From Candidatus Gracilibacteria bacterium (lineage in GTDB: Bacteria > Patescibacteriota > Gracilibacteria > BD1-5 > UBA2023), in contig JAQUAB010000005.1 in NCBI GenBank assembly GCA_028687475.1, forward strand, positions 1 through 64,000: a DNA stretch of 64,000 nt, in the 5' to 3' direction. A program made the position numbers and the translations under genes. The stretch's first letter is position 1. Each line of letters opens with the position of its first letter. This document shows, one piece after another, positions 32,177 to 60,098 of this stretch. The notes beneath the pieces are model-generated. The model was not told the origin of the DNA, did no database searches, and saw only the letters and a list, made by a program, of their open reading frames with translations.

Positions 32177-32336
32177 GCTACATTTAAACCAATCGACATC
32201 TTTTTTTGTCCATTTTTTGGACTGTCTGTTTACTGTTTAGAAAAGGAGGGTATATCCAACTCTCCAACTCAACAGTAGGCAGATGTCAGGTTTAGATGTA
32301 GCAATCAATCCGAGGATATACTCTCCTTTTTTGTTT
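32177..32336 (+). ncRNA. Candidate structured RNA, copy 1 (interleaved helices, island)
   Basis: Helix A: GCTACATTTAAACC (32177-32190) with GGTTTAGATGTAGC (32289-32302), 14 bp, extended by GACATC/GATGTC (32195/32282) and TACTGTT/AACAGTA (32231/32271). The apical loop holds strand B, AAAAGGAGGGTATATCC (32241-32257), which pairs over all 17 bases (one G-U) with GGATATACTCTCCTTTT (32314-32330), downstream of helix A and running into TTTTTTGTTTGC. A-B-A'-B' order means a pseudoknot or a switch between two states, the second being an intrinsic terminator. A sister element with the same layout is at 59946. It lies in the gap between two divergent genes, 25 bases before the next plus-strand ATG. Confidence 0.65.
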
Positions 32337-32361
32337 GCTTACTTTTTAACTTATATTTTAT

Positions 32362-32652
32362 ATGGAAAAATGTCTATACTGTTGAAATATTAAAGATAAC
32401 ACCTTCAAAAAAAGTTCTCTGCTTGGTTTTAGAAATCTTGAATGTTCAGAGTGTAAGAAGATATCATTACTACCTCTATCAAAAGGTACAAAGAATTTTT
32501 ACTATTTTCTATGTGCTTTTTTTATCTTAGGATTTATATTTTCTCTTACGAATTGAGAAGTAACTATCCCATGATTATTATTTATAATTCCAATTGTTGC
32601 CCTTATTAAGAATAAAAAGTTGGAAGAAAAAATATCAGACACTAACAACTAA
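32362..32652 (+). CDS. Small zinc-ribbon membrane protein
   Basis: 96 residues. N-terminal four-cysteine knuckle pair, KCLYCGN (C4, C7) and LECSECKK (C26, C29), followed by two TM helices (YYFLCAFFILGFIFSL and GLLFIIPIVALI) and a charged tail. Three TGA-Gly codons, one of them right after CLYC. This zinc-ribbon plus two-TM layout occurs in many small uncharacterised bacterial proteins. First of four closely spaced plus-strand genes (gaps of 3, 2 and 20 bases), all envelope proteins. The structured RNA lies just upstream. Confidence 0.75.
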
Positions 32653-32655
32653 CAT

Positions 32656-33477
32656 ATGAAAAATATTAAAACCATTATCCTAATAGTAGTCATTATATTT
32701 ATGGCATATACAAGAGAATGTATTGCCAAAGAATATACCTATAAAGATAGTTATTTCTCACTAAGTTTAAGAGAGACTTGGACTGAAGCAACAAAAGAAG
32801 AACTCAGTGAAGTAAATAAGACATTGACTGAGATGGCTCAATGAGCAAGGGTTTACCCAATAATAAAAGCCTTTAAACCAATAAATCCAACAGATTCAGG
32901 ATTACCTTATATTTTAGTTGAAGAACATAAGGCAGGCTCCTCAGGTTATAAGTTTTATAAGAAAATGTTAGACGATGGGCTAGACATGTCTTCTGATAAT
33001 TGAATGGGGAAACTATATGACAATAAGTTTATCCAAGAGAATATTAAGAATCTAAGTATAAATAGCCCATTGATTTCAAAGAAAGATTGAGTTATACTGA
33101 TGTCATTCTGATTAGATATATCAGGTCAGTCACAAAAAGGATTTTTAGCAGTTTTTGTGTGAAGTAAAAATGTATTGCTTTTTAAGTTTTATACGGATGC
33201 CACTAATTATAAAAAGGATATACTAATATTTCAGGAAATTATAAGGAGTTTCAAATTTTCCAATGCTACAGTTATCCAAAATGAATCTACTGATATAGCA
33301 CCTAGTAATTCCTCATTAGATAAAGTTGAACTAGATAAAATTAATAATGATAACTTTGCTATTTACCCTATAAAGAAAAAAGATGACAGCATTCAAATAT
33401 GGTTTTACTTATTATTTGGAATCATAACAGCATGAGTCTGAATTCTAGTTCAGAAAAAATTTAAACTCATCAAATAA
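32656..33477 (+). CDS. Exported, C-terminally anchored protein, 273 residues
   Basis: Signal peptide MKNIKTIILIVVIIFMAYTR, then about 190 residues of alternating strand pattern starting KEYTYKDSYFSLSLRETWTEA, a style seen in PsbP/DUF1795-like lipoprotein domains (a strand, YF-L-LP-W, then helix). The C-terminus has one TM helix (WFYLLFGIITAGVGILV) and a basic cytoplasmic tail. Many TGA-Gly codons. Three bases after the zinc-ribbon gene. Function unknown; presumably an extracytoplasmic domain held to the membrane. Confidence 0.72.
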
Positions 33478-33479
33478 TC

Positions 33480-34016
33480 ATGCAAATTATAAAGAATATA
33501 AAAGCCTTCTTGAATCAACTGCTCGAAATAGCCTGATGAATACTCGTATTTATTATATGAGGTGGCTGGGTGTTATTATTTATCTGATACAGTGTTGTAC
33601 ACGCATTCTTTTGATGAGATGAAAAACAAACGGACAATATGCAAAACACTCGTAATACGTCCAATTATTATGAATCACCTGTAAGTAAAAAAGCCACTCC
33701 TACCTATACATATCAAAAGTCATGACATGATACAGGTTATGAGTGGGCAGAAGATAACGATATAGACAATTTTGATGACTGCCAGAGTGAGTTCGGAACT
33801 AGCGATGAGGAGGATGGATGTAATCAATACGTAAAGCAAAACTATACAGGATATCAAACATTTGGCGGATATGAATGTACAGAAGATTGTAGTTGACACG
33901 AGGCTTGATATGAGTGGGCAGAGGAGCATGATATATCTGATTCTTCTGATTGTGAGAGTATTGGTTCATCTTCATTTGGTGAAGGCTGTCAAACTTATGT
34001 GGATGAAAATTACTAA
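33480..34016 (+). CDS. Membrane protein with two Cys-containing GYEWAE repeats
   Basis: 178 residues. An N-terminal TM helix rich in Gly (GGILVFIIGGGWVLLFIGY, five of its glycines TGA) is followed by a Ser/Asn/Tyr linker and two tandem repeats: SGHDTGYEWAEDNDIDN + DDCQSEFG...GCNQYV and SGHEAGYEWAEEHDISD + SDCESIGS...GCQTYV. Each repeat carries two cysteines spaced alike (the linker between adds CTEDC), which suggests a small disulfide-stabilised module outside the cell. The GH--GYEWAE--DI---DC motif appears in uncharacterised phage/plasmid-linked proteins from memory; no function is known to me. Confidence 0.78.
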
Positions 34017-34036
34017 TTTTTTTAACACTCTTTATT

Positions 34037-34861
34037 ATGTCAGCAGCAAAAAGCAAAATGGGAACAAAAAATGAAACAAACAAGTTAGAACTCGATAGTA
34101 AGAAAGATAAACGGGTTTCTTCCTACATGCAAGAAAGAAGAAGGAGTACAAAATGGAATTTTTTTTGAGTGATTATAGCCCTAGGTATGCTCGCATATAT
34201 GTGCATGTTAATTTATAGAGGAGACATAACCACTTCATATCTATTTAGTTATCTTCTTAACCCCGTTAAGGAAGTATTAGCTTTTAGTACGGGTCTATTT
34301 ATAAAACACGTAGCATTGCTGTGAGCCTTACTATTTATAATAGAAGTCATATTTTCATTAACCATGTCAAAGCCCTGAACAATATCAAGGCCCAATACTT
34401 TAGATGAGTGGTTAAAAAAAGAGATTTATGAACTGTATGCCATTGAATATTGAGAGAATCTTCCAAGTTGGCACTTTTATAATAATGATATTAATGAGCG
34501 CATAAATAAACTTTGAATTAAGTCATATTTTTTTGAGAGATTTTTAACATATAGTACCGTGCCACTCTATTTAAGCATAATTATCTGAGGCTCTATTTTA
34601 TTAAATTATATCTGAGAGATATTTTTTCAGGGCTCTTGAGTAGCTATTTTTAGATTTATATGATTTACATGAGTAAATGGACTTATCTTAGCTTACATGG
34701 TTTATGAATTGATAAACAGTAGCTCTCTTGAAACTACTCGGAAATTACTATTTAATTTTGAAATTGCCACATTTATTCTTTTATTATTATCAATTTTCTC
34801 ATTATTAACGTTTCAAATAGATTTAACATCTATTTCGTGTGCCAATCCATACCAACACTAG
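34037..34861 (+). CDS. Multi-pass membrane protein, unknown
   Basis: 274 residues, many TGA-Gly codons, ending at TAG. A charged N-terminus (MSAAKSKMGTKNETNKLELD) precedes about six hydrophobic segments: FFGVIIALGMLAYMCMLIY, a second near LLGALLFIIEVIFSL, a cytoplasmic or external helical loop around LPSWHFYNNDINERINKLGI, then VPLYLSIIIGGSILLNYIGE and two more near the end. No transporter or enzyme motif found. Last gene of the four-gene envelope cluster; a terminator follows at 34940. Confidence 0.7.
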
Positions 34862-34939
34862 CGATTCTCTACGACTCTGAAATTTTACCACCCACCCCCA
34901 GCCCCCCTTCATTTTCCATAAAATCCATACTTGAAAATT

Positions 34940-34976
34940 ATACTAGACTCTTCTATATTGTGTCTAGTATTTTTTA
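34940..34976 (+). terminator. Terminator after the envelope cluster
   Basis: ATACTAGAC (34940) pairs with GTCTAGTAT (34962), followed by T6. Confidence 0.85.
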
Positions 34977-35067
34977 ATAAACCAATGCAGATATTGAAAT
35001 TTTCACTTGCAATAAAATCGAAAATCCATATTATTAGACTCAATATATTTATTCACTTATTAAGTCT

Positions 35068-35658
35068 ATGAACTGCGTCGAACCGATTCGAGATTTGAAA
35101 AAAATATCCCAGATTAAAAATCTCCTCAGATGAGAGTGAAATATCCGAGATTTACTCCTATTTGAGCTTGGTATAAATAGTGCTCTGAGAGTGTCAGACT
35201 TGCTTGATATACGAGTTTCAGATGTTTTTACTAGTATTGATACTCCTGCTGATTTCTTCGACGTTAAAGAGGAAAAAACAGGGAAATCGAATAGAATTAC
35301 TATTACCCCGAAAGTAAAAGAAACACTGAGGCTCTATGCAGAGACTTATCCTGAAGTTGTGAAAAATCCAAATTACTATATATTCTTCCATAAAAAACGC
35401 TTTCCGAGTGGAAGTGAGCCAATAGGGAGAAAGACGAGTTGGCTTCTTTTATCTAGTCTTTGTGAGAGTGTCGGACTCAAATGAAACTTCTGAAATCATA
35501 CACTTAGAAAAACATGGGGTTACCAAGCGAGAATCCAAGGTATACCACTTGAGATTATACAACATAAGCTCAATCACTCTTCGCTTGCAGTGACCCAGAA
35601 ATATCTAGGAATCACAGCGGATGAGATAGCAGAGGCATGCAATAGGCTGGATTTATAA
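35068..35658 (+). CDS. Minimal tyrosine recombinase (catalytic domain only)
   Basis: 196 residues, only the catalytic domain of a phage-type integrase; the N-terminal core-binding domain is missing. Active-site residues can be followed: R in LGINSALRVSDLL, K in EEKTGKSNRITIT, HTLRKTWGY (HxxR), LNHSSLAVTQKYLGIT (H and nucleophile Y). Five TGA-Gly codons. Stand-alone catalytic domains occur in SNJ2-like or small plasmid resolvases, and XerH-like short forms. A promoter-like TTGCAA...TATTAT lies upstream. It heads the plus-strand run that continues with the HEPN gene 15 bases later, so it may belong to that cargo rather than to element excision. Confidence 0.85.
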
Positions 35659-35673
35659 TTTTAATCTTATCTT

Positions 35674-36663
35674 ATGACAAATCTTGAAAAAGAACTTTCA
35701 AAGCTTGAAACTGAGTTAAGAAAAATGGAAACTGCTAATGAGTTTCTAAAAGCCTCTTTTTATATCAATAAGACTATAATTCCTTTTCTTATAAAGAATA
35801 ATTCAAATGCAAAACATAAAACAAAATTGCAGTTTTACAAATCTAAACTCCGTGAAGTTAGCAAAAAATCCATTAGTGAGATGCAATCGGTCGAATTTGA
35901 AACGCCTGTGGATTGAAAAAGAATAGATGAATATTTGAAATTTTATACTTCATCTAAAGACCTAAATACACTCATGTATCGACTGGGTAGTATGGTACCA
36001 AAAAATGAACAAGTATTAGAGACTTCAAAAAAAACAATGCCTCTTACATATTTGTTTGCCAGTAGACAATCAATTGATGATGACTGAAATGTTAACTCGT
36101 GAGAAAATGATGAATGGTATTATAATATGTATCGTGTACACCAACAATTGTCAGATACTTTTCTAGAAATGATATTCTTAGAGGTTATAGCAAATAGAAT
36201 ACTCACGGAAGAATGATTAATAAAGTTTATATCTTCAAAGCCTTTATTTCTGAAATATAGTGAATTGTTGAAGTTTGCACATTGAATACATACTTATTTT
36301 ACAGGGGATTACGTAGCAACTTTGCATATTCTTATTCCGCTTTTTGAGAAAGTTATCTTGAATGTATCAGCTCAAGTCGGTATAGATACTATTGCATTAT
36401 TGAGATGAAAAGAATGAATTTGAGATAAAACTGTTTGAAAGGATTTTTTGAACTCACCCGAATTTCAGGAAAAATGGTGAGTTAATTTAGGAAAACAGAT
36501 ATCTTTTATTCTCTATGATAATAAGGGATATAATCTTCGGCATAGTTTAGCTCACTGAGAAATAGACTATTCAGAATGTAACTTTCAATCTTGAACATTA
36601 ATCATATGGCTATATATAGCTATAGCCACAAGACTAAAAGTTCAAATAAAAGAAAATGAATAA
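35674..36663 (+). CDS. HEPN-like protein (DUF4209-type C-terminus)
   Basis: 329 residues with many TGA-Gly codons. Opens with a coiled-coil helix (LEKELSKLETELRKMETANEF). The C-terminal region reads TLHILIPLFEKVILNVSAQ, then a stretch ending NKGYNLRHSLAHGEIDYSECN and a hydrophobic helix. RHSLAHG is an Rx4H motif with the N-LR-x(3)-HG context typical of HEPN RNase families of DUF4209 type, which are common in phage-defence and toxin loci. The metal-independent RNase activity is inference from this motif. Followed by two unknown genes with gaps of 11 and overlap of 16 bases, suggesting a three-gene unit. Confidence 0.7.
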
Positions 36664-36674
36664 GGTTTTACTAT

Positions 36675-37856
36675 ATGAATTATAAGAAACATAAATCCTA
36701 TCATCTTTTAAGAAAAGAGGATAAAGATTACATAGATAAACTTATAAAGAGTGGATATAAGATTGGATTTATAAATAAACTTCTTGTAATTGCCTCAAGA
36801 TATCATCCGTTTGATACTTTGATTTATATTAGGGATAATATTCTGAAATCTGACCCATTACAACGAGTAGTTGATAACTTTCGACCTGTTATAACAATTA
36901 GCATATGAACAACTATTTTTCATATACCAAAAAATCAACTTATCTATCTGTTGGAATGGTTATTTAGACTACAATCTAATATTAATTTCTCATCAAAAAA
37001 TCTTAACCAAGAAAAAACAAAAAGATTTTTAATCGATATACAAGAATTATTCAATCTTGCCAGTGACCAAATTCATGCCCCAATATTAACTGCTATGAAG
37101 GAGGCAATCGATACAAAAACAAAAGATAATATAGTAACAGCACTATCGTTATTTTATATTGCAAATTATCATCAATCTAATGAGGGCTATAATATATTCT
37201 CTCGACTAAGACTTTTAATTGAAACAGATTTAAATAAATTAGTTTTTAAGGATGTGGTTTCTATACGGAAACAACTAGTCATGTATACTCTGGTTTTAGT
37301 ATGAACCGCTTACACATGAGGAAATGTCTTAATAAACATTAAAGCCATAATTGAGCTTACAAAAAAACAACTAAAATATATCATTACAGAAGAAGATATT
37401 TTAGAATATATAGAAAATTGAGGTAGAATTTTGGGCTACCAAGCCTATCATGATGAATTAATCAACAATAACTTATCACACTATTTTCCACTAATAAATA
37501 CTTACGGTATATTCAATTATAAAACAGTATTGAAAGGGGCATTTATAAGAATATCAGATATATTATGAGTAAACAATACGTACTATTTCTTTGATGTTTG
37601 ACGCTCAGCAGAGGAGTTATATGAGCACATGGTATCAAACGAGAATTTATTGTCTAATGATAGGGCAAAATTTTATGAAACATACTGTTATCTATTCTTA
37701 GAAGCATGTTTTTCTCAAGATAAGAATAAACTAAATCCTGCAGATTACCAGTACTGAAAAAGCTATATTATCAAAAAAATTCACGAGAAACTATATGAGA
37801 TATTGATTTTTATATCTTTAATAAAAAGACCTGAGTATTGATGATATTTGAGTTAA
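36675..37856 (+). CDS. Helical protein, second gene of the HEPN operon
   Basis: 393 residues, seven or more TGA-Gly codons, ends at TAA. Starts MNYKKHKSYHLLRKEDKDYI. All-helical with repeated hydrophobic/charged periodicity, for example NQLIYLLEWLFRLQSNINF, LSLFYIANYHQSNEGYNIFS, and a Tyr-rich C-terminus ending RPEYGGYLS. No signal peptide, TM helix or nucleotide-binding motif is evident. It lies between the HEPN gene and a third unknown gene that starts inside its last codons. Family not recognised; a partner or regulator of the HEPN protein is a reasonable but untested guess. Confidence 0.65.
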
Positions 37857-38491
37857 AAGATAGAAGAATGCTCGGTGAGGATTTATATCAACTAGAAAAA
37901 GTTGAGCACTTATGTTCAACTTGGGATGAAATACCATGAAGAAAAAAATGAAAAGACTGAGATGTCTACACTGGAGTAAAGCAACTAGAAAAATTTATTA
38001 AGATGCCTGATAGAGTATTTTTACAAGAAAAACTCTGACTAGATGTACCAATTAATAATATCCACGGTGTATTTGTTACAACGAAAGCAGCAATATGATG
38101 GAATGCTATAATGAAATCCATCCTATCTTGAAAAATTTCTTTGTGAGATAATGAGTATTCCTTTGCCTCCTTATGAGAAATTGAGCATTTGCTTTGAATG
38201 GCTTGTGAAAAATGAATACCATTTGATGAAATATTACTAAGAAAACAAAGACCTTCACTAGATATACTAGACCCTCTTCATATCGTAATTTGAAGACTAA
38301 GCACAAATGACGCGGTGCTTCATAATAAAAGTTTTTCCTATACTGATAGTATTTACCAAGATTTTGATGTGTTTCTTAATTCAACCTATGGTAAATGAAA
38401 TTGATTTTTCCCATTATCACCAGAAGATACTAGCTTTGAAGGGCTTTTAAAAGAAATTCTTGAAGAAGATAATACCGATAATATATCTTAA
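37841..38491 (+). CDS. Third gene of the HEPN operon, unknown
   Basis: 216 residues with about fifteen TGA-Gly codons, one of the densest in the window. ATG 37841 overlaps the preceding gene by 16 bases, implying translational coupling. Sequence blocks: EKVEHLCSTWDEIPGRKKGK, then NIHGVFVTTKAAIGGNAIMK, ISLGDNEYSFASLGEIEHLL, and LDPLHIVIGRLSTNDAVLHN. The mix of short strands and His/Asp residues is enzyme-like, but I find no known catalytic motif. Ends one base from the convergent integrase stop. Function unknown. Confidence 0.65.
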
Positions 38492-38492
38492 C

Positions 38493-39398
38493 TTATATTC
38501 TAAGTTTCTGCATTTCCTCAAAGGTTTCTTTGCTATTCAGATAGAGATATATAGAAGTAGTCTTGAGGCTCGTATGCCCCATTTGTTGCTGGAGAGTATA
38601 GAGATTAATGCCTCTTTTTACGCAGATAGAGGCGTATGTATGGCGGAGTAGATGAGGAGATAGATTTATTTTAAGAGCTTCTTTTATTCGTCGAAATAAG
38701 CAGGATATAGCACTTACTCAGAGTTGTCTTCACTGGAGGTCACAGAATACATATATGCTATTCTTATCTTGTATTTCTATATATTCCTGAAGCTGTCTGC
38801 TGAATTTCTGAGGAATATATATTATCCTATCTTTTTGCCCTTTTCACTGTTCCACGATGATATGTGTTTCATATACTCAATTTCTTTTGAGATTGATTAT
38901 TTCCGCACGTCTCAGTCCTGTGTGGAGAAAAGTTTCCACAAGGATATAGTTTCTCATCTGTATAAACTTCGTTTGGTGGACTCATGGTCTCAGTATGTAT
39001 TCACGCATCTTCAATATATCCTCTTCGGTCATGGCTTTTGGTAGGGGATTAGTTGTCTTGATTTTTGGTATCTGGTTTATATGTACTTTGTCTATGAGCT
39101 CACTTTCTTTGAGGAAATCAGAATACTTCTTGATGCATTTATAGTGTTTATAAATTGTATTGTTTCCCATGTTCTTTCCTGATAGATTGTAGTATGCCAT
39201 CTTGAGTTTCACGAAGTTCCCGAAATCGAGATATGATGAGAAACTCGAGTGCCTGATGAAGAGATGAAGCATTCCGATATAATATCAGATTGTATTGTGG
39301 GTCAGTCCCTCGATACGGAGTTGTGAGAGGTATTCTTCCAAATAGAAAGACGATACTACCTCTTCAGGAATTGGCATGTAATGATTGACTTTGAGCAT
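38493..39398 (-). CDS. Tyrosine integrase of the element (XerC/D-like)
   Basis: 301 residues, full two-domain layout. N-terminal SAM-like core-binding domain (residues 1-125), including LSQLRIEGLTHNTIGYYIG and a long helical region; catalytic domain from AMTEEDILKMREYI. Active site: R in LHTGLRRAEIINL, K in GKGQKDRIIYIP, HLLRHTYAS, MGHTSLKTTSIYLYL with nucleophile Tyr. Several TGA-Gly codons, including G in EQGKGQKDR. It lies at the right end of the element and its 5' end faces the 39569 repeat 170 bases away, the usual arrangement of an integrase next to its att site. Confidence 0.92.
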
Positions 39399-39417
39399 AT
39401 CTAAAAACAGATTAAAA

Positions 39418-39462
39418 AAATAACCTGCGGTTGAGCATCAGCCCGTTGCAGGTTATTTATGG
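39418..39462 (-). terminator. Strong hairpin upstream of the integrase
   Basis: AAATAACCTGC (39418) pairs with GCAGGTTATTT (39448), 11 bp; on the minus strand it is followed by a T-run, so it would shield the integrase from transcription entering from the chromosome. Confidence 0.6.
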
Positions 39463-39568
39463 TATTTTTGAAAGTGTTTTATAAGTATTAAAACTTATAT
39501 GTCATTAGTCATTGGTAATCTTCCCAATCAGGAAGTCTGATTTTAGTGGGGAAATATTTTGCTCAAAC

Positions 39569-39622
39569 CCTGTGACCTTCAGCTTAGAAGGCTGCTGCTC
39601 TTCCACTGAGCTACGCGGGCAA
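39569..39622. repeat. att-type direct repeat, right copy (54 bp tRNA-Arg fragment)
   Basis: Identical to 28761-28814. It contains tRNA-Arg positions 1 to about 51 but lacks the rest of the T-arm and the 3' acceptor strand, so it cannot make a tRNA. Confidence 0.85.
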
Positions 39623-39643
39623 AAATCAGGAAAATGTAGAATT

Positions 39644-39713
39644 CCGCGACCAACAAGGAATCGAAGTGTGCCTTGCACCGAAGACTTCTTCTCTTCCACT
39701 GAGCTACGCGGGT
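39644..39713 (-). pseudogene. Second degenerate tRNA-Arg-like remnant
   Basis: TCTTCCACTGAGCTACGCGGG (39692-39712) is identical to the 5' part of tRNA-Arg, and a distorted remainder reading back to CGCGGAAT follows. The anticodon and T arms do not fold. It lies 70 bases outside the right att copy, which suggests an earlier insertion or recombination at the same tRNA gene. Confidence 0.55.
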
Positions 39714-39855
39714 GTTTTATCAAGAGCGAAGAGAGAATATCGAGAAATAGCAGAATGTCAAACGGAATTCCTGCATGAAAAATAAAACAAATTGTCTTCT
39801 CTGAATAAAAAATATAATGAATTGCGTATAGACATATGAATCTCATTTTTCGAGT

Positions 39856-40419
39856 ATGAATGATTCGAATCTGGTCCAGAGAATTATAGAAAATCCTGAT
39901 GTTTTTGCTGAGGTGATTGATGCTTATGAAGAAAAACTCATGAGATATATTTTGCGTATGACCGATATAGATGAGATGGATGCGGAGAATCTTCTGCAGG
40001 ATATTTTTATCAAAGTATATCGATATATTCATGAATATGATGTTCGGTATAGTTTCTCGAGTTGGATATATCGCATCGCGCACAATATGATCATCGATAA
40101 CTTTCGCAAGAATCAGAAATTCGCAGGAAATATATCACTCCAAGATGAAGAATATCAGAATATTATCGATTCTCTGACGGATGGGAATTCACCACGATAT
40201 GATCTCCAGAAAAAGGAAAAAAGAACCTGTGTCCAAAAAGCAATTGCTCTTTTGCGTCGAGAATATCAAGAAATTATCCTCCTCAAATGTATAGAAGGAT
40301 ATTCGTATGAAGAGATTTCTGATATATTGAAAGTCCCTATCTGAACTGCAAGTACGCTCGTCAATCGAGCACGAAAACAACTCCGAGAAAATCTCGAGAA
40401 ACTCGCTTGTAATCAGTAA
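39856..40419 (+). CDS. ECF-type RNA polymerase sigma factor
   Basis: 187 residues with sigma-2 and sigma-4 regions only. Region 2: YEEKLMRYILRMTDIDEMDAENLLQDIFIKVYRYI, with the DAENLLQ-IF core and region 2.4 SFSSWIYRIAHNMIIDNFRK. Region 4: LRREYQEIILLKCIEGYSYEEIS, DILKVPIGTASTLVNRARKQL, the helix-turn-helix that reads -35 elements. One TGA-Gly (in VPIGTAS). Twelve bases downstream is a membrane protein that could act as its anti-sigma partner. It stands at the chromosomal side of the element boundary. Confidence 0.92.
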
Positions 40420-40430
40420 TTATCATATAT

Positions 40431-41141
40431 ATGAAAAATACACTAAAAGAAAAGATATTCTCCAAGATTGAGAAAGAAAAAATCCAACCAATTCCAGAAT
40501 CATATTTTGTAAAAAAACAAAAATTATTGTGGTGAAGTATTATTATTTTCCTTATTTTTGCGACCATTTTTGTTGGATTTCTTTCAGATGACACTATGGA
40601 ATTTTTCTCTCTATGATGACATATGTGAGGGAATTGGCATGTTCTCTTTTTCCCGAATATTTTCTGGATTGCGCTCATTCTTTTTCTTCTGTTCATGGCT
40701 TTTCGCAAGCTCAGAGATACAGCAGTTGGATATCGGAATTCCTACGCGAAAGATATTCTCATAGGTATTATCGTGATTCTTTTTTGAAGTCTGATTTTTC
40801 GATGAATTGGACTCTGACCGATGATTCATTCTTTCGTGGCGACGAATATTCCTGTGGTATCGAATTTTCTCTACAATGAATCATCCTGGAATGATCCAGA
40901 AAATGGGAAACTCGCAGGAATAATAATCGGTGTCGAAAAATGAGGAATTCGATTGCAGAGTACGGATGGGGGTATATGGAATATAGATATGAGAAATGCA
41001 GTCATATCACCTATGGTTGTTGGAAAAGTAAACGAGAAAATCCGAATAATCTGAAAGAAAACTTCGGATTCAGATTTCGTCGCGGAGAGGATGATACCGT
41101 GGTTCGGAAAATGAATGGGAAACGGTTGGTGACGACGTTAG
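40431..41141 (+). CDS. Membrane protein, possible anti-sigma partner
   Basis: 236 residues through about ten TGA-Gly codons. A 35-residue cytoplasmic N-terminus (MKNTLKEKIFSKIEKEKIQP) precedes TM1 (IIIFLIFATIFVGFLS), a Gly/His loop, TM2 (FFPNIFWIALILFLLFMAF) and TM3 (DILIGIIVILFGSLIF); the outer C-terminal domain of about 100 residues ends VAERMIPWFGKGMGNGWGRR. No zinc-binding anti-sigma motif (HxxxCxxC) is present. The gene order sigma factor then membrane protein supports an anti-sigma role. The Gly-Met-rich end resembles one in the next protein and could bind metal. Confidence 0.72.
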
Positions 41142-41244
41142 GAAGATTTTCTCATTTTTTGAATAATTCTTCCAGAAGAAAACGTATAAAAGATTGTAAG
41201 GTTCTTCAATAAGAATTTTACTTCTATCTTTTTACTTTTTTCTT

Positions 41245-42096
41245 ATGCAAACACGTACAAAAATATATGTGGCAACCGCTACAATCATTCTTATCGGAGC
41301 AACTGCTGGATTGACTTATGCCATGGTTGGAACAGGGAATGGATTTACGAACCAATTCTTCTGAAGAAATAGTCAAACATTTTCTCGAAATCATACCGCA
41401 TGATTCTTATTCCAATCAGGAAATACGATGATGTGAATGTGAAATGGGCAAGGAAGATGAATGGGAAATTCCCAAAACTCCAATCATAATCCATGAGCTC
41501 TCGTACAAAATGTGGCTTCCAGTCCACTTTCTGATCAGGAGAAAGCTGACCTTGCTTATCAATACAGTGAAGAAATGGTGGCACGAGATGCGTACAATTA
41601 TTTCTTCTCACTCTATCATGTTCAGACTTTCCAGAATATAGCACAATCAGAGCAACAACATATGGATGCAGTGAAGGTCTTGCTCGACCGTTATTCTCTG
41701 CCAACACCGACCAATTATGGAGAATTGGATTCTACATTTCTCACACTGAAAGCAGAATGAGAAAAATGACTCAAGGAAGCCCTAGAAGTCGGACTCAAGA
41801 TAGAAATGCTCGATGTGAAAGATATTGTCGATACAATCAAAACGACGGATAATGATGATTTGAGAATCGTATTCTCGAATATTGGCGGCGCGTCATACAA
41901 TCATATGCGTGGATTTCTCCAGGCACTCCAAGTGAATGGTATGAGCACAACAATCGACTACAGTTCGTATCTCACAGAATCTGATATCAATACTCGTGGA
42001 AGTCTAAAGATGAAACTCGTGAACAAACTTCAAGCCGAATGAGTCGTTCTTCCAAATCAGGTGAATACTCTGAATATGCGCTGAGGGAATTATTAG
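41245..42096 (+). CDS. Exported DUF2202 ferritin-like protein
   Basis: 283 residues. Signal anchor (VATATIIILIGATAGLTYAM region), then a low-complexity Asn/Gly/Met segment (MMGMGNGQGRGMGNSQNSNH; most Gly as TGA). The DUF2202 domain follows from about residue 90: LSDQEKADLAYQYSEEMVARDAY, FQNIAQSEQQHMDAVKVLLDRY, and the second half with KDIVDTIKTTDNDDLRIVFSN and SYNHMRGFLQAL. The E...E and EQQH residues match a ferritin-like di-metal helix bundle. A Met/Gly-rich exported protein under an ECF sigma factor suggests metal or redox stress response, by inference. Confidence 0.85.
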
Positions 42097-42107
42097 AAAC
42101 ACATTCG

Positions 42108-52200: not shown

Positions 52201-55200
52201 CGAAGATGAGTTTTCCACCACTTCCTCCACCACCAAAACTTCCAAAAATGTTTGGTTCAGTTTCGATTGTAACGAATCTTGTGAAATTATATCAGACTAT
52301 CAAGTGTTATTATCAGAAATCCATGCTCGTTCCAGAATGGCAAGTGGGAGATGTGATTGCTCAACGTACTGCTCGTCAGGGAACTCTTCCGATTGACTTC
52401 TTGAATTTACAGTTTCCACAGTTTTCTATACCTACTCTCAGAGAAATTCGCGTTCAGTCACATGTGAATTTCGAACTACGGTCAGATTTTATCACTGAGT
52501 TTGCTCGGAATGCCGTGAAGCCACTGAATCAATTCAATACGGATTTGGGTCATTCCATTCCTTCGAGAGTAGTAGAAGATGTGAGTATTCAGACTCCATG
52601 AAATGTGAATGTGTCAGTTCCAGCCATCCAGTCCTATCTCGATTCCTCTGAATCTTCGGGTGCAACTATTGGTCAGATGATAGCAAAACTTGATACATAT
52701 GCAGATGTCATGATGGATGTCTCAGATTTTATTCCGTATTTCCAGAGTGAACTGCTCAAGAGTGGACAATCAACGGATGAACTCAATAAGGCACTCCAGA
52801 AGTCACATATTGAATCTGAGAAAGTCATGAATGAACTCCAAGAAAGTACCGATACGCAAGTGAAACTCCTGAAACAATATATCGAGGCAGAAGAGGCGAA
52901 AACGAAAGATATCGAGAAACTCATCGATACAATGAAACATCCGAATACACTTCTTTCAGAAAATGATATTGGAACCGCGTCATTCGTCAGTGAAGCCAAT
53001 GATGCAGGAACAACAGCACTCAGTCGATACAATGAATTCATGAATGCTTCCGTTCAAGATTCTTCCACTTCATCCAATGTTGATACAAGTATGGAGACAG
53101 AACGTACTTCTCTCCAGAATCGTACGAAACGTCTGATTGCTGCCGTCACTACAACTACTGTGACTCCAGAAAGTGGATGAATCATAGCAGATGGATATTC
53201 TCCGAAGTTCGAGGGAATCTATATTCTGACACCGAGCGGTGTTCAGACCCGACTTTTCGACTACATAGAGCCACTTCTCGGAGATGAGACGGTCGATGTT
53301 CTCGATATCGACAAAGACGGAGACAAAGACTATCTGTATCTCATGGATGGTGTCCTCTATCTGAAGTCGAGTCATGCACATGAACCAAGTCAGCAGAAGG
53401 ATACGACTATTACTATTTCTGACCTTGATCCAACACTTGTACCAGAAGCTCCGAATTTTTTCCAAGAATTCTCAGCGAGTCCTGGACAGATTGAACTCAA
53501 TTTCTCTGCGGCACAGAACCAAGACCGACAATTCCGCCTCGAATTCTTCGATCGCTATACGGAATGGGATCTCCTCCATATTGATGCACATGATGAAGAG
53601 AAAATTCCTCGAAGTGTGGTCGATATTATTACAGAAGATACTTCACATGATACGAGCGCTGATGGTATAACGGTTCATCCACTCGAACGTTCTCTCGATA
53701 AGATTTCTGGAACGGATGGATTTATCCTCGAATGACCGAAAGTCACTCCAGTTGCCGCGGGTACGAATTTCTCACTCACCTATGGACGTCCACTCTATAC
53801 GGGTGAATCCAATGCCCGAATCACATTCACTCTCGGTGATGGAGTAGTGCAGAATCTCACGCTCAAACCATATTCACAGTATATATTCGATGATACACTT
53901 TCAGGTTCTCTCACGAGCGGTCGCGTCTATTTCTTCGATACGATGGTGACTGAGAAAACTTCATATGATGATGCTCTCGTTGGTATGCCACTTCTTCCAG
54001 GTATGAAAATCTCGAATCTCGGTGGTACGTTCACGATTCGTGATGTGACGCATGATACGAAGACGACTCTCGAATCAGGAGGACAATACCGCATTATGTC
54101 TTTGCCGACACTCAGTACTTCGAATATTATTTCTGTGCCGTATGAGAATGGATTCTATAATGCTCGACTTTCGTCTCTCGATTCGAGTGTTCATGCGGGA
54201 ATCACTCTCTTCACACCGCAGGCATCGCTCGATCACGGTGCTCCAGTGGTTGATATTGCCGATACTATCCGCATCCCAGTCTATCAGACGAAATCCTATA
54301 TACTCACAGATATCATCACAGAAATCAGTCCATACATGGTCACAGTGGATCCAGATACCACTCAGGATACCAATGATGATGGTATTTATGCGAATGATTA
54401 CATGACTTCCGCTTCATGAGTCAGTATTACAGACAAAAATCTCACATTTGGTCCATATGATGAGCTCGGAGAATATACGATGAATCTGAAAGTCCAAGAT
54501 GAATATGGAAATACAACAACCACTCCGATTCACATCGAAGTCTATGCTCCAGTACCACAGATCCAGTCCGTGTCCGCGACAGGAATGCTCTACGGATCGC
54601 TTGTGGATGGTCAGAAAAATGAACCAATTCATTTCTTGCGCGTTCGTTCTGGAACGCCAGTGAGTATCATAGCTCCAGAGAGAACCATTTCTCTCGATGA
54701 CGGTTCATTCGCGACGGGAAGTCTCTTCACGGGAAGTGGTGCTCGATTCTCCTATTCTGGCGGAACATTCGTGATCAATGAACAAAATGGATTGCCGACA
54801 GGAAGTGCGAAACTGGATATACAAGTTCTCACGGCAACAGTGGATTCACCGATGAAGTTCCAGTACAAGAGCACGAATGGAAAAACTCTATTTGAGGAAT
54901 TTCTCTCACTTCCATCGTCTACCAGTATTTCTCTTTCTGCTTCAGAAAAAACAATTCCGAGTGTTATCGTGACAGCCGAGAGTGGATATCGTGCAGAACT
55001 TGCGACCCTGAAGGATCCGAATATTCCTGGCGGAGCATATGTTACTGATGATCAGAAACAAGCAATTGCCGCTCTGGCAAATGATGGAAATATCTATCTA
55101 CTCACTTCTGGACTATCTCTTGTGGCGACGAACAAGAATGGGTATCTCGCCGTCGAAATCCAGAAAAATGGAAAGTCGATTGCAACCGTTCTCTATCAGG

Positions 55201-55226
55201 TGAATTTCTTCTACATGACGAAATAG
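43224..55226 (+). CDS. Giant surface protein, 4,000 residues
   Basis: One uninterrupted code-25 frame of 12,003 bases to TAG; I walked every TGA junction (about 37, including a TGA triplet at 47886) and met no TAA/TAG. N-terminus: signal anchor (LSVFLIFCLLVSQTIQVSFF, residues 15-34), then a domain with RDLVSIVVDRDTYGKL and TVLIGNVPIPVV reminiscent of gingipain-like (C25) lead regions. Residues about 1050-1500: Ig-like/filamin-type repeats. Residues about 1855-1985: FG-GAP/VCBS repeats (DMNHDGNEDIVIVYTDG, DFTGDGYGDIVVLTAG, DMDADNRDDIVYLTE). About 2270: calcium-type DADNNGTPDSVEN. About 2390-2520: Cys/Pro-rich stretch. About 2955-3010: Leu-Pro repeats (LPSLP, LPELP). About 3150-3250: coiled coil. 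Probably an adhesin or host-contact protein. ATG 43224 is preferred over GTG 43191. Confidence 0.9.
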
Positions 55227-55234
55227 TTTCCTTT

Positions 55235-55262
55235 TTGCTTTTTCTGGACTTCTCCCTATAAT
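55235..55262 (+). promoter_or_regulatory. der promoter
   Basis: TTGCTT (55235-55240), 16-base spacer, TATAAT (55257-55262). A second TATAAT at 55301, 10 bases before the ATG, has no clear -35. Confidence 0.6.
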
Positions 55263-55316
55263 CCCGTCAAAATCAGACACATTTGTTGAACAAAAAACCA
55301 TATAATCCCTTTTTTC

Positions 55317-56780
55317 ATGCTTCCACGAGTTACTATAGTTGGCCGACCAAATGTCGGAAAATCGAGTCTTTTTAATGCTCTTTCTGGTCATCGTATCGCG
55401 ATTGTCTCTGATATTGAGAACACGACACGCGACATTATCGAATTCAAGATTCATGACAATGAACAAGATTTTTCCTATATCCTTGCGGATTCTGGAGGTA
55501 TTGTTCAGGCAGATGATGAGACACTCCTTTCTGATGTTCGCGGACGTGTGGATGATGCTATCGAGAGCTCCGATCTCATTCTTTTTGTCCTCGAGTTCGA
55601 TCGTATCACAGAGTTCGATGAGCATATTGCGAAGAAGCTTCGTCGTTCCAATAAACCGATTCTCGTGGTGGCGAATAAGGCAGATAATCCAAAACGTGCG
55701 GTAGAATCGTATGCGCTTCTCGAGCTCGGTCTTGGTGATGTGATCCCAACGAGTCCGATGCAGACACGCGGTATGGAAGAACTCCGTATTGCTATCGCGA
55801 AAACCCTTCGTGAACATGGATTCGAGTCCAAGGCAGATACAGAGCTCGAAGATGAGAATATATTGAAGCTCGCGATTATTGGTCGTCCGAATGTCGGGAA
55901 ATCCTCTCTCGTGAATGCAATTTCTGGAGAGATGCGCTCTATCGTGAAGGATATGCCCGGAACGACTCGAGATGCTATCGATACGATTATCGAATTCCAA
56001 GGTGAAGAAATCTGTCTCATCGATACTGCTGGTATCCGTCGAGCGGGAAAAATCGGGAATGCGAATATCGAACAGTGGAGTGTGATGCGCGCAGAGCGCT
56101 CTATCGAGCGTGCTGATGTGGTTGCGGTGGTTCTGGATGCATTCGAAGGTATTGCTCATCAGGATGAGCATATCGTCGGCGAAGCGATGAAAGCGAAAAA
56201 GGGAATTATCCTTGTGCTGAACAAGTGGGATAAGGTGCTCAATAAGCCAAATGTTGGAAGAGAAACCATTCTCGAGCGATATATGCAGTACCTCGCGAAG
56301 AAGTTCGATTTTCTCTCCTATGCTCCAGTGGTGTTTACTCAGGCGATTGAAGGGAAACGCATCGATCTCGTTCTCGAGCATGCGATCAAGATTCGTGCTG
56401 AGCGTCAGAAGCGTGTGAAGACGGGTGTCTTCAATAAGTTTCTCGATCAGATTACCTACGATCATGCTCCAACAGGAAACAAGAAATCCCACAAGCCAAA
56501 AATCTATTACGGTTCTCAGGTAGATATCAATCCTCCACGATTTGTGATTTCTGTGAACAATGCTGGGCACTTTCATTTCTCGTATGTTCGTTATATCGAG
56601 AACAAGATTCGTGAGATTTTCGGATTCGAGGGAACGCCTATCGATATTGAACTTCATTCACGCAAGAGTATCTACAAGGACAAGAGTCCTGAACGTGATG
56701 AAGAGGAAGGGGAGAATATGATTCGTCGTGACGATCATGTAGACAAGAAGTTCGCTACCAAGAAGAAGAAAAGAAGATAA
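55317..56780 (+). CDS. der: Ribosome-assembly GTPase Der (EngA)
   Basis: 487 residues with no TGA at all, despite about 30 glycines. Two tandem GTPase domains: G1 GRPNVGKSS at residue 9 with DTTRD-like NTTRDIIEF, DSGG and NKAD; second G1 GRPNVGKSSLVNAISG near residue 188 with PGTTRDAID, DTAG and NKWD. The C-terminal KH-like domain (VNNAGHFHFSYVRYIENKIRE, then EGTPIDIELHSRKS) is followed by a Lys/Arg tail. Der is needed for late 50S assembly. Four bases of overlap-free spacing to a TraB-like gene downstream. Confidence 0.98.
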   Translation: MLPRVTIVGRPNVGKSSLFNALSGHRIAIVSDIENTTRDIIEFKIHDNEQDFSYILADSGGIVQADDETLLSDVRGRVDDAIESSDLILFVLEFDRITEFDEHIAKKLRRSNKPILVVANKADNPKRAVESYALLELGLGDVIPTSPMQTRGMEELRIAIAKTLREHGFESKADTELEDENILKLAIIGRPNVGKSSLVNAISGEMRSIVKDMPGTTRDAIDTIIEFQGEEICLIDTAGIRRAGKIGNANIEQWSVMRAERSIERADVVAVVLDAFEGIAHQDEHIVGEAMKAKKGIILVLNKWDKVLNKPNVGRETILERYMQYLAKKFDFLSYAPVVFTQAIEGKRIDLVLEHAIKIRAERQKRVKTGVFNKFLDQITYDHAPTGNKKSHKPKIYYGSQVDINPPRFVISVNNAGHFHFSYVRYIENKIREIFGFEGTPIDIELHSRKSIYKDKSPERDEEEGENMIRRDDHVDKKFATKKKKRR

Positions 56781-56805
56781 ATATTTGTCTAAAAACAATA
56801 TCAAA

Positions 56806-57777
56806 ATGTCTCGCAAGTTTCTCATCATTACTGGTTTTTTCTCATTTCTCGCACTTTTCGTGCAGTGGGGATTTACAGGGTTTTCTGGACTTATTGGAGG
56901 TATTTTTCAGATTCTTTCTTGTGGACTCATTGCATCGTTGATTGTCCGAATGCTTCGGGGAAAAGATATTTCTTTTCGTGCCAACTTTATCCGATCGACG
57001 CTTGTTTTTGCTTCCGTCATCGGGTTTTTCTCAGGGATTCTACTCCTATTTATCGCATATCAGAACACTTTCCCTGCCGCAGTAGGAAAAGTCATACTGA
57101 CCAATGGTGACAAAAATATTGTCGTCTATCAGATGTCACATATCGCCACACCAGCATTTTATGCTCAAGTAAAAAATGGAATCACAGAACTTGCTGCATC
57201 GGGATATACGATCTATGCTGAGTGAGTCAGACCAGGAACTCCTGAGAATCAGGAACGTTTCGATAAGCTCCTCGGTATCAAGATGACCAAGACACTGTAT
57301 GAGAATTTTTCGTCTCTTTTCGGACTCATATCCCAAGATGACTCGATCTATGCTGAAGTGGCTACAGGAAGCCTCCAGAATGTGGATATTTCTCTCGATG
57401 ATATCATGAATCTCATCGGAACAGGTGCTGTAGTTCCTGAATCCAGTCCTATCGACCTCGAAGCAGAAATCGCTCAGCTCGATGCCTCAGAACGAGGCGT
57501 TCTGCTGGCTCCATTCATGCGTTCCATGTTGAATTTCTTTCTCAGGAATAATAGTTCCCTTGATTCGCTTGCATCAGGTTTTTCGCCTGAAGTGTTCGAT
57601 GTGATTCTTCATGATCGCAATGCATTCATCGTCAAGACACTCGAAGCTGATACCCAGAAGAATATTGTCCTCGTCTATGGGGCAATGCACTTCCAGGGAA
57701 TCTATGATCTCCTCAAAACTCACGATCCAAAATGGAAGATTCTCTCTGTAGAATCTCTCTATCCTTATTCATTCTAG
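56806..57777 (+). CDS. TraB/GumN-like membrane protein
   Basis: 323 residues with one TGA-Gly (AEGVRPGTPENQ). Three N-terminal TM helices (residues 5-27, 31-47, 65-90) precede an extracytoplasmic or cytoplasmic domain with VVYQMSHIATPAFYAQVKNGI, YTIYAEGVRPGTP, a helical middle and DVILHDRNAFIVKTL, then VLVYGAMHFQGIYDLL. The HIA-P, AEG, RN and YGAMH blocks match the TraB/GumN (ChaN-like) superfamily, whose conserved Glu/His are thought to form a metalloprotease-like site. Its fusion to N-terminal TM helices is less usual. Lies 25 bases after der. Confidence 0.8.
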
Positions 57778-57879
57778 GACGTCAAATCTATCCTCGACTT
57801 CCTTTTGATTTCTGAGCAGGTTTTCATATACTAAATTGACCTATTTCAGGCTCTTATTTTCCTATTGATTTTATTTTTC

Positions 57880-59853
57880 ATGGCACCAAAAGATCAAAAA
57901 CCACAAAAAAAACCAACTCCCAAAGTTCCAAAGATTCCAAAACTTCCAAAATGAGCGAATGTGAAAGTCTATGAGATTACTCTTCGTACCTTTCTCTATC
58001 CGATTATTGTTGGGTTTGGTATTTTTGCTATCATCTACGGAATTCGTAACTACTCTACAGAGAAAATCACCTACAATGATGATATCGGACTCAATCAGAT
58101 TACTCAGAACTATAGTTCTGGAGTCTATGAGGAAGTAGTGATTCAAGGCGCGAATATCCAGGCAAAGAAGAAGGCGACAGAAAATGTCGTGAATGGAAAG
58201 GTGGTTACGAGTCGCGAAGTAGATCGAACGATACTTCCGGTAAATCTCGAGATTACTGATATTGGTCTCTCGAATCCAGCCAATCCCACCAAGGTGACTA
58301 TCAAAGAAGAAGGATGGGGTACTGTTCTGGCAGATCTTCTTCCATCACTTCTCGGAACTCTTCTCTTTATCGTATTTCTCTTCTTCATCATGGGTCGTAT
58401 GGGTGGTGGAGGCATGGGAAGTCCGATGGCGTTCATCAAGAGTCGTGCTCGTATGTATGATCCTGAGATGGATGAGAAAGTGACATTCGAGAATGTTGCT
58501 GGTGCAGAAGAAGAGAAAGCAGATCTCGTAGAGATTGTCGACTTCCTCAAGAGTCCACAGAAATACAAAGACCTCGGTGCGAAAATCCCTCGTGGTATCC
58601 TGCTCCAGGGGCCTCCAGGAACGGGGAAGACGCTTCTTGCTCGTGCTGTTGCAGGTGAATCTGATGTTCCATTTTTCTCTATCTCTGGTTCTGAGTTCGT
58701 CGAGATGTTCGTCGGTGTCGGTGCTGCTCGTGTACGTGACCTCTTCAAGGATGCTCGTGACAATGCTCCATCGATCATCTTCATCGATGAGATCGATGCT
58801 ATCGGGAAAAAGCGTTCTCCTGGTATCGGTGGTGGACACGATGAACGTGAACAGACATTGAACCAGATCCTCACGGAGATGGACGGATTCGATAACGAGA
58901 CCAATGTCATCGTCATGGCAGCAACCAATCGTGCTGATGTCCTCGATAAGGCTCTTCTTCGTCCAGGACGATTCGATCGCAAGGTGACCATCAATCTCCC
59001 AACTCTCGAAGACCGTCGCAAGATCCTCGACGTCCATGCGAAATGAAAACCATTCGCTGATGATGTGAATCTCGATAAGATCGCAGCTATCACCGTCGGA
59101 TTCTCTGGTGCTGAGCTCGGGAATCTCCTGAATGAGTCTGCTATCCTCGCTGGTAAGAATAGTGCGAAAAGTATCACTCAAGAGATGATCCAGAAATCTA
59201 TCGAGAAAGTCGTGATGGGAAATGAGAAAAAATCGCTCCGCATGACCGAACACGAGAAGAAGCTCACTGCTATCCATGAGATCGGACATGCGATCGTCGG
59301 CAAGATGCTCGCACACACAGATCCAGTGCACAAGATATCTATCCTTCCTCGTGGTGGCGCTGGTGGCGTCACTTGGTTCCTCCCTGAGAAAGATAGAACC
59401 TATACTTCGAAGGCGAAATATCTAGATGAACTCGCGACTCTCTATGGTGGTCGTGTAGCAGAAGAAGTATTCTTCGGTCCTGACTATATCACGACGGGTG
59501 CGAGCTCAGATATCGAGCGTGCGACCGAGATTGCTCGTGCGATGGTGATGCGATTCGGTTTCGATAGTGATATCGGGCCAGAGAATCTCGCTCCGGATAT
59601 GAGTGAAGGCAACTTCCTCGGTGGTCAGACGAATGCGAAGGTCATCTCTGATAAGACACAGGATCTCATCGATTCGAAGGTGCGCAAGCTCCTTCTCGAT
59701 GCCTATGCTCTCGCGAAGAAGATCATCACTACGAACAAGGCTCTCCACGAGAATCTCGCGAATGCTCTCCTCGAACGTGAAGAGATGCTTCAGGAAGAGT
59801 TCGATGCATTCTTCGAAGGAGTGGAAGGTGTTCCACAGAAAGTCGCAATGTAG
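57880..59853 (+). CDS. ftsH: ATP-dependent zinc metalloprotease FtsH
   Basis: 657 residues, two TGA-Gly codons (57958 region and 59044, the latter in HAKGKPFADD). Unusual Lys/Pro N-terminal tail ([19 protein letters not shown]) precedes TM1 ([18 protein letters not shown]); a periplasmic-type domain of about 90 residues; TM2 ([19 protein letters not shown]). AAA: Walker A GPPGTGKT, Walker [12 protein letters not shown] with RPGRFDR. Zinc site HEIGHA near residue 470, with the third ligand Asp in [11 protein letters not shown]. Degrades membrane and regulatory proteins. Strong CTC/ATC codon bias suggests high expression. Terminator follows. Confidence 0.98.
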
Positions 59854-59856
59854 TCT

Positions 59857-59885
59857 ATTCCCTCACGAAAGTGGGGGATTTTTTG
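59857..59885 (+). terminator. Terminator after ftsH
   Basis: TCCCTCAC-GAAA-GTGGGGGA stem with T6, six bases after the ftsH stop. Confidence 0.85.
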
Positions 59886-59945
59886 TATTTTCCGTTCAAT
59901 AGATCTTTTTCTTGATCTATTAGATAAAATTCATACTATAAAAAA

Positions 59946-60098
59946 GCCAAAATTACATCTTCTATTCTTTTTATATTTAAAGGTAAGTAGGAGGATTTGC
60001 AAAATCCTTTCCTCTCTTTCTGTCTTTAAATATAGGAAGAAGTTGTAGTTTTGGCGAACATTAAGGTGAGCGAGTCCTCCTTTTTGTTTGCCAAAACT
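59946..60098 (+). ncRNA. Candidate structured RNA, copy 2 (interleaved helices, before the R-M system)
   Basis: Helix A: 59946-59982 with 60024-60055, about 30 bp with small internal loops; ends GCCAAAA/TTTTGGC and TATATTTAAAG/CTTTAAATATA are perfect. The apical loop holds AGGAGGA (59989-59995), complementary to TCCTCCT (60075-60081) downstream, which runs into TTTTTGTTTGCC. Helix C: AGTTTTGGCGAAC (60047) with GTTTGCCAAAACT (60086), 13 bp with one G-U, competes with helix A for the TTTTGGC strand. Layout and spacing match the 32177 element while the sequence of the helices differs. This occupies most of the 328-base gene-free stretch 59854-60181; the rest holds hairpins AATAGATC/GATCTATT (59898) and ATCCCACT/AGTGGGAT (60104). 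Confidence 0.65.

Follow-up and report, generated by a model that had tools for sequence, protein, structure and literature searches.

Two leader copies in the window

The window analysed here is the whole stretch of 64,000 nucleotides (nt) taken from a Candidatus Gracilibacteria genome (contig JAQUAB010000005.1, positions 1 to 64,000). It carries two copies of a structured RNA element on the plus strand, copy 1 ahead of a gene for a protein of 96 amino acids (aa) and copy 2 ahead of a DNA methylase gene, and with TGA decoded as glycine long frames, both of these genes among them, stay open. An earlier note had described the same design at 32177-32336 and 59946-60098; both copies were present at these coordinates and their common design was confirmed by the sequence, by folding and by a shared string. 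Folding of the real sequences against shuffled ones gave z values of -6.55 for copy 1 and -6.40 for copy 2, with 0 of 200 shuffles as good. The shared string, CTCCTTTTT and GTTTGC separated by 0-2 nt, was found at these two sites only in the 1.06-megabase genome (1,056,170 bases in 5 contigs), and the reversed pattern used as control gave zero matches. The two copies belong to a large and apparently undescribed family of leader RNAs of one bacterial order.

From 5' to 3' the leader consists of a promoter-like sequence, strand A, the 5' arm of a middle stem, P5a, P5b, the 3' arm of the middle stem, A', GAAC, the short linker L2, P3, a run of T residues (T-run), GTTTGC with A'', often a B hairpin, and the ATG. 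The hairpin that opens with strand B before the ATG was seen by eye in about two thirds of members. The stretch that opens with A and closes with the T-run measured 128-158 nt (median 140, n=46), and the ATG was reached 148-250 nt from A (median 201, n=42). The element is wider than described earlier, being a 5' leader that follows a promoter-like sequence and has further pairing partners past the T-run, which in about two thirds of members (by eye) extend to the ATG. The coordinates are summarized in Table 1.

Table 1. Parts of the two leader copies and the genes after them (positions in the window)
Feature	Position	Strand	Basis or detail
Copy 1 promoter-like sequence	32144..32170	+	TTGACA, 15 nt, TATAAT (sequence)
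Copy 1 strand A, presumed RNA 5' end	32177..32190	+	14 base pairs with 32289-32302
Copy 1 P5a, tip of long hairpin	32241..32257	+	17-nt partner of P3
Copy 1 strand A'	32289..32302	+	Fold and helix scoring
Copy 1 P3 and T6, terminator-like 3' arm	32314..32332	+	P3 32314-32330, T6 32327-32332
Copy 1 short A'', GTTTGCTTAC	32333..32342	+	Sequence; A':A'' weak here (score 17)
Gene after copy 1, 96 aa	32362..32652	+	CxxC pairs followed by a pair of hydrophobic stretches (by eye)
Copy 2 promoter-like sequence	59912..59939	+	TTGATC, 16 nt, TACTAT
Copy 2 strand A	59946..59963	+	Pairs with A' over 18 nt
Copy 2 middle ('barcode') stem	59965..60041	+	Arms 59965-59983 and 60023-60041, P5 domain between; predicted fold
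Copy 2 P5a, AGGAGGATTTGC	59989..60000	+	Helix scoring with P3
Copy 2 A' and GAACA, proposed toehold	60038..60060	+	A' itself 60038-60055
Copy 2 P3 and T5	60070..60085	+	P3 60070-60081, T5 60081-60085
Copy 2 A'', TGTTTGCCAAAACT	60085..60098	+	Alignment and helix scoring
Copy 2 strand B, hairpin and T5	60148..60181	+	GTTTTGGC 60148-60155; hairpin 60153-60176; ATG directly after
Gene after copy 2, N6/N4 DNA methylase	60182..60976	+	PF01555, E 1.8e-57
Next open reading frame, DUF6996/DUF6997/DUF7226 domains	60834..62204	+	Pfam; start position provisional

Conserved alternative pairings

The pairing of each member's own strands was compared with that of strands swapped between members. The mean best helix score for own against swapped strands was 30.9 against 19.0 (standard deviation (SD) 3.9) for A:A', 31.6 against 19.9 (SD 6.1) for P5a:P3 and 21.5 against 15.6 (SD 4.4) for A':A'' (n=55 each). 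Member L049, having too little upstream sequence, was excluded from the pair tests; L051 and L056:2102, which have no P5 half, were kept in the swap test and left out of the P5b:L2, octet and fixed-register tests. In a sequence-only alignment of 56 members, 86% of the A':A'' cells were paired; shuffles gave 79.6%, and sliding the partner strand gave 30-50%. The doubly changed cells numbered 50 against 16.5 in shuffles. Cases of a rewritten toehold include GCGAAT/ATTCGC in L024 and GCAATATA/TATATTGT in L092. Counts in a fixed register showed about 99% pairing for P5a:P3 (n=55) and A:A' (n=39), but the register was chosen per member and favours the model by construction; the pairing conclusions therefore rest on the swap test.

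Strand B was found to fit A better than A'' (permutation test, n=49): the A:B helix score was 15.3 for own and 13.4 for swapped strands, with 0 of 5000 permutations reaching the own value, and that of A'':B was 12.9 and 12.3, with 243 of 5000 reaching it. In L035, L059 and L060 the portion of A matched by B, CCGAG, is missing from A''. Position 8 of the octet was counted in those members, 37 in number, in which A agrees with patterns set beforehand. Here A has T opposite the G of A', a T.G wobble, in 28 of the 37, and A'' has C in 20 of those 28, so that A'' pairs better with A' at this position than A does. The fold with A':A'' was more stable than that with A:A' in 37 of 44 members, and in the unconstrained folds of these 44 strand A had its partner on the 3' side in 22, in A' in 12 and elsewhere in 2, and stayed unpaired in 8.

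These tests and the alignment strongly support the earlier proposal of selected RNA structure with interleaved, covarying helices: A:A', P5a:P3, A':A'' and A:B all hold their pairing as the bases change. With an effect this large, and with strands rewritten independently, chance is an unlikely explanation.

Promoter register and the terminator-like helix

A hexamer resembling a -10 box (at least 4/6) ended 3-9 nt upstream of A in all 43 members scored, against 31% of 739 control placements; at the stricter level of at least 5/6 the figures were 32/43 and 8%. The best-scoring hexamer at a distance of 15-19 nt upstream was exactly TTGCAA in 14/43, a count made without control. This test took 43 of the 57 members and the fold-energy test 44 of the 57, as A is not reliably placeable in the others. 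As the -10-like hexamer sits at a fixed register before A, strand A is probably the 5' end of the RNA.

A T-run of at least 4 at the end of P3 was present in 54/57 members and was retained in L065 and L066, both of which lack A''. Outside the helices the alignment revealed only short recurring stretches, ACA..AGAG or ACATCWAAGGC and the T-run. The AGGAG(G) in the apical loop had been called intriguing in a genome without Shine-Dalgarno leaders; as far as the comparison goes it is no ribosome-binding motif, since P5a differs among members (GGGCAACTTAG, GGGTGATTTTATC and GGGGGATTTAA being some of its forms) and P3 changes along with it.

A second sub-group (L008, L027, L032, L053, L065, L066 and others) is marked by a linker resembling AAACAT..AAGGC, by an A'' that is much reduced or absent and by the lack of a clear B hairpin, and by eye many of its members stand before membrane or secreted proteins. 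L051 and L056:2102 keep the 3' core with P5a missing and may be decayed or remodelled leaders.

Copy 1 is an atypical member, being without a B hairpin and having only a short A''. Its promoter-like sequence was absent from a plain promoter scan, in which the allowed spacing was 16-18 nt only. The promoter-like sequence of copy 2 is a weak match, and the scoring script chose CATACT (4/6) in its place. In copy 2 the second barcode arm overlaps the start of A', and A' has the alternative of pairing with A over 18 nt or with A'' over 14 nt (60047-60060 with 60085-60098). An extra hairpin, GTATCCCACT-caaa-AGTGGGATC, lies between A'' and B at 60102-60125.

Family size and occurrence

The element had been presented as a two-member family, which was wrong. 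The window's own genome has 8 copies, 7 found by both covariance models and one (L178, expectation value (E) 0.0044) accepted by eye, and dozens were found in relatives. A string search over 59 genomes with the own one included, and a sequence-similarity (BLAST) search over as many, gave four further true members (L003, L004, L006, L008); L005, L009 and L010 were string or short DNA matches with the anatomy missing and were rejected. The first covariance model of the core (59 positions, built on 6 sequences) had matches at E<=0.1 in 31 of the 58 genomes of the order, own included. Some weak ones were non-members, and L040, L063 and L067-L070 were rejected by eye for missing anatomy. The second model, built on 56 cores, matched at E<=0.001 in 32 of the same 58 genomes and in 19 of 30 genera. 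The covariance search that had been proposed as a test of the family thus returned many further members.

Beyond the order, the second model matched 11 of 145 genomes of the class, of which 9 belong to the order and two are G064 and G183, and 3 of 239 genomes of the phylum, namely the window's own, G064 again and G289. The three matches outside the order (G064, G183 and G289; loci L074, L076 and L093) were rejected by eye. A scan of named genomes with one pattern gave 5 records, four titled Candidatus Gracilibacteria and one Patescibacteria, and a one-pattern scan of viral contigs gave zero matches.

At its default settings the second model missed two leaders, L109 and L112, and its silence alone proves nothing. 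It had no match at E<=0.001 in the genera g14 (G027, G033, G042, G045, G050, G057) and g9 (G008, G017), though their relatives have several. These eight genomes would be useful when a co-occurring regulator is sought.

The comparison with Rfam, for which a known terminator or insertion-sequence end had been named as the refuting outcome, revealed no family at its threshold. Rfam 15 gave only ribosomal RNA and transfer RNA (tRNA) on the whole window, no match up to E 5 on copy 1, and only two tRNAs on 20 member loci. On copy 2 all matches were far below threshold, the best being MIR9563 with 27.5 bits against 90 (E 0.0024).

Genes after the leader

An open reading frame (ORF) of at least 60 aa on the same strand started within 220 nt in 52/56 entries, a count in which chance ORFs are uncontrolled. 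By Pfam, 17 of the 52 encode a DNA methylase or a restriction enzyme: 9 EcoRI-type methylases (PF13651), 4 N6/N4 and 2 C5 methylases, 1 Mrr-type and 1 Tsp45I restriction enzyme. One further first gene had a weak HNH match and stands outside the 17. The others include prepilin-like proteins (L042, L045), subtilases (L027, L065) and zinc-ribbon proteins (L041, L055, L037; two of the three under the Pfam cut-off), and many of the 52 had no Pfam match.

The EcoRI-type methylases were also searched for independently of the leader. PF13651 was found at 15 places in 13/58 genomes of the order, and the second model found the leader at 12 of the 15. Of the remaining places, L109 and L112 score weakly (E 0.06 and 0.16) and have diverged leaders that can be seen by eye, and L117 is a 3' fragment of the gene. 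All 14 PF13651 genes of the order that have their 5' end thus carry the leader, two of them by eye. Outside the order, the model had a best E of 0.88 on 29 PF13651 loci. As it had missed L109 and L112, folding was also used as a control: the 230 nt upstream of the genes of the order gave z values of -7.0 to -9.5, against -2.0 to +1.4 for 27 of the 29 outside loci (L156 and L159 not included).

In three loci outside the order (L157, L158, L167) an XRE-like helix-turn-helix ORF was seen by eye to end just upstream of the EcoRI-type methylase, in the place which the RNA leader occupies inside the order. In L048 a GmrSD_N/HNH protein is encoded downstream of the methylase; ORFs resembling it follow in L006, L028, L104 and L112, and none was found within the stretch examined in L044 and L109.

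For PF01555, which has many more places in the order, 7 of 30 loci sampled had a match of the second model, one at E 0.056 judged real by eye, and several of these loci hold gene fragments. Both copies had been said to sit before accessory genes. The gene after copy 2 encodes a PF01555 methylase, and that after copy 1 had no match in a Pfam scan. The ORF that follows the copy 2 methylase is possibly its partner gene.

The barcode stem

The promoter-leader cassettes of L021, L052 and L056:1516 (all in genome G041) and of L047 (G031) are nearly identical and stand before unrelated genes, so that copying of the cassette appears to be independent of the gene. Across these four, identity reaches 98% in the P5 domain and 92-93% in the A and A' regions, against only 54% and 62% in the two arms of the middle stem. 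Within each copy the arms are complementary to each other (scores 19-22), the swapped arms having a mean of 9.9 and a maximum of 14. The same trend was seen in L044, L059, L035 and L039, with identities of 100% in A, 97% in the P5 domain and 58% and 48% in the arms. Their own arms scored 18-23 against a swapped mean of 12.6 and maximum of 20, one swapped pair equalling some own pairs. L065 and L066 have a similar pattern by eye; in L003 and L004 the stem is identical between the two.

A stem of about 13 base pairs is thus mostly rewritten on both arms in near-identical copies. This could reflect selection for private folding of paralogous leaders, or a rapid mutation process that copies hairpin arms.

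Interpretation

The interpretation we hold with about even confidence is that of a cis-acting, promoter-linked leader RNA that works as a co-transcriptional strand-exchange attenuator, in which termination and switching are inferred from the sequence. Counted from A, this leader reaches the end of its T-run after about 130-160 nt and the ATG after about 150-250 nt. The RNA would begin at A and fold the long A:A' hairpin, whose pairing the covariation shows, with P5a held at the hairpin tip by a local P5a:P5b hairpin. The emerging P3 would then capture P5a and form with the T-run a pseudoknotted terminator whose 5' arm lies on the tip of the rod, and many transcripts would end at the T-run. Transcripts that read through would make A'', whose GTTTGC pairs with the proposed GAAC toehold beside A', and A'' would oust A from A', the pairing again being shown by covariation. 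The freed 5'-terminal A would pair with B before the start codon, as the permutation test supports, and alter the B hairpin, which may set the level of gene expression. The middle stem would act as a private 'barcode', by which every copy is held to folding with itself despite the A, P5 and A'' common to close copies. The gene set (restriction-modification, membrane, secreted and pilin-like) suggests a switch for low or timed expression of accessory genes that are costly when over-made.

The P5a:P3 helix shares one trait with intrinsic terminators and lacks another. It is a GC-richer stem followed by T>=4 in the 54/57, the trait being absent from L112 and L109, but in place of a short local loop P5a and P3 are separated by 56 nt (copy 1) or 69 nt (copy 2), which include A'. 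A local-terminator scan of the window fails to pick the P5a:P3 helices, and a pattern scan of the window demanding a T-run longer than that of either copy gave no match. A' has two conserved pairings that exclude each other, one with A and one with A'', which is a trait of strand-displacement attenuators. Of the earlier proposal of a pseudoknot or a terminator/antiterminator switch, the class remains the best explanation, and termination and switching themselves are only inferred.

Several observations weigh against the attenuator and the pairings behind it. The own pair was the single best of 55 in only 27 members for A:A', 16 for P5a:P3 and 9 for A':A'', because relatives have strands in common. 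The number of A':A'' pairs with any double change (8) was equalled by 24 of 500 shuffles, the A:B covariation is partly confounded with A':A'', and the P5b:L2 extension is weaker and has modest support (19 of 5000 permutations). The swap tests ignore relatedness and are inflated by related sequences, and all fold energies disregard pseudoknots and kinetics. Two EcoRI-type methylase leaders, L112 (TTCTT) and L109 (TTTT set off by GC), have lost the run right after P3, which makes termination doubtful there. In about ten members, copy 1 included, A'' is short or absent and there is no clear B hairpin. The B hairpins are not always followed by a T-run; the lax rule for them accepted 49/57, some unconvincing, and overlooked B strands visible by eye, such as those of L054 and L055. 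The share of restriction-modification genes among first genes (17 of 52) likewise stands without a background rate.

The main rival is translational control by the same RNA, a possible though rather less probable account. The pseudoknot and the A/B region would shape the RNA at the AUG, as a standby site or by occlusion, and the T-run would be a U-rich linker between P3 and A''. It draws on the clear B hairpins, which end about 4-10 nt before the ATG (partly by construction, the script having demanded the ATG within 16 nt), on those B hairpins that have no T-run after them, on L112 and L109 with little or no T-run directly after P3, and on the precedent of tisB, in which a 5' pseudoknot is required for translation (PMC7708055). 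A linker would however not need a T-run of at least 4 in 54/57 members, kept in L065 and L066 where A'' is missing, and for this reason termination is favoured.

An improbable reading is that of a stable trans-acting RNA of about 140 nt (a protein sponge, an RNA antitoxin or another small RNA) which happens to be located upstream of accessory genes. The promoter-like start, the terminator-like end and the strong fold would suit it, but conserved pairing extends beyond the T-run toward the ATG, a same-strand ORF follows in most entries (the 52/56 in which chance ORFs are uncontrolled), and ToxI-like tandem repeats are absent from both window copies. Still less probable is a DNA element, that is a recombination or transposition site or a mobile repeat with a hairpin in single-stranded DNA. 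The near-identical cassettes before unrelated genes of one genome (L021, L052, L056) do appear to move; against it, G-U pairs are freely used (GU 26, AU 16 and GC 11 at the A'/A'' column pair 15-62), the promoter register is fixed at A with a same-strand ORF following as above, and viral contigs had no match to the one pattern. Ordinary terminators alike by chance, though AT-rich genomes have many T-runs and strong hairpins, are already refuted by the split-arm covariation over 55 members, the fixed promoter register and the 14/14 methylase leaders.

A wider form of the attenuator can be put forward tentatively, as a portable, self-addressed RNA relay. The promoter-plus-leader cassette would be copied before unrelated accessory genes throughout one bacterial order, the strands would exchange in the order A-A', P5a-P3, A'-A'' and A-B, the rapidly rewritten barcode would block cross-pairing between paralogous leaders of the same cell, and at the EcoRI-type methylases the RNA would occupy the place of a controller protein. 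The leader family would be a natural case of toehold strand exchange and of a pseudoknotted terminator whose 5' arm is remote, and the stem that diverges on both arms amid near-constant surroundings would be a natural orthogonality tag. Such a strand code may help in the design of orthogonal RNA switches.

Comparison with known systems

The type III toxin-antitoxin RNA of ToxI type consists of tandem repeats of a pseudoknot unit before the toxin gene. Copy 1 has one 8-nt unit twice only and copy 2 none, and this candidate was dropped. The core of an integron attC site is RYYYAAC...GTTRRRY; the GCGAAC...GTTTGC of the leader does not match it by eye, and this candidate was dropped as well.

In repZ of IncI/IncB plasmids an upstream hairpin loop pairs with a distal strand near the gene. 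As in repZ leaders, and as in tisB mRNA (PMC7708055), a leader pseudoknot would govern a tightly held gene. Unlike these, the present leader has a T-run after the distal strand and serves many different genes; no antisense RNA or leader peptide was identified with it, no search having been aimed at either. In hok mRNA of hok/sok the 5'-terminal strand has successive partners and gives timed expression. The 5'-terminal strand A would likewise change partners; the type of gene is different, and the second partner lies just before the AUG.

Strand-displacement attenuators and riboswitch platforms are described for the yxjA purine, ZTP and fluoride riboswitches (PMC9756952, PMC10085676, PMC11077080). 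The present leader resembles these platforms in having mutually exclusive helices and a stem followed by a T-run, and would share with them the invasion by a later strand. It differs in that no conserved ligand pocket was seen here and the strands vary widely, in that its terminator-like helix borrows the 5' arm from the tip of another hairpin and would thus be a pseudoknot, and in that a second exchange, A'' for A and then A with B, would take place past the T-run. Control of restriction-modification by C-protein and antisense RNA is treated in PMC3874152; the leader would similarly control expression of methylase and restriction genes. Where three of the methylase loci outside the order have the XRE-like ORF, a structured sense leader is found here.

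A non-exhaustive literature search, which included PMC8172020, PMC3874152 and PMC7708055, found no such Gracilibacteria leader described. The finding matters as a large leader family without Rfam 15 match in an order that has small genomes and reads TGA as an amino acid, and as a leader that appears to tie restriction-modification expression to RNA refolding. Set beside the known systems, the leader RNA with alternative pairing is familiar, and what would be new is the split-arm pseudoknotted terminator-like helix, the second exchange and the barcode stem.

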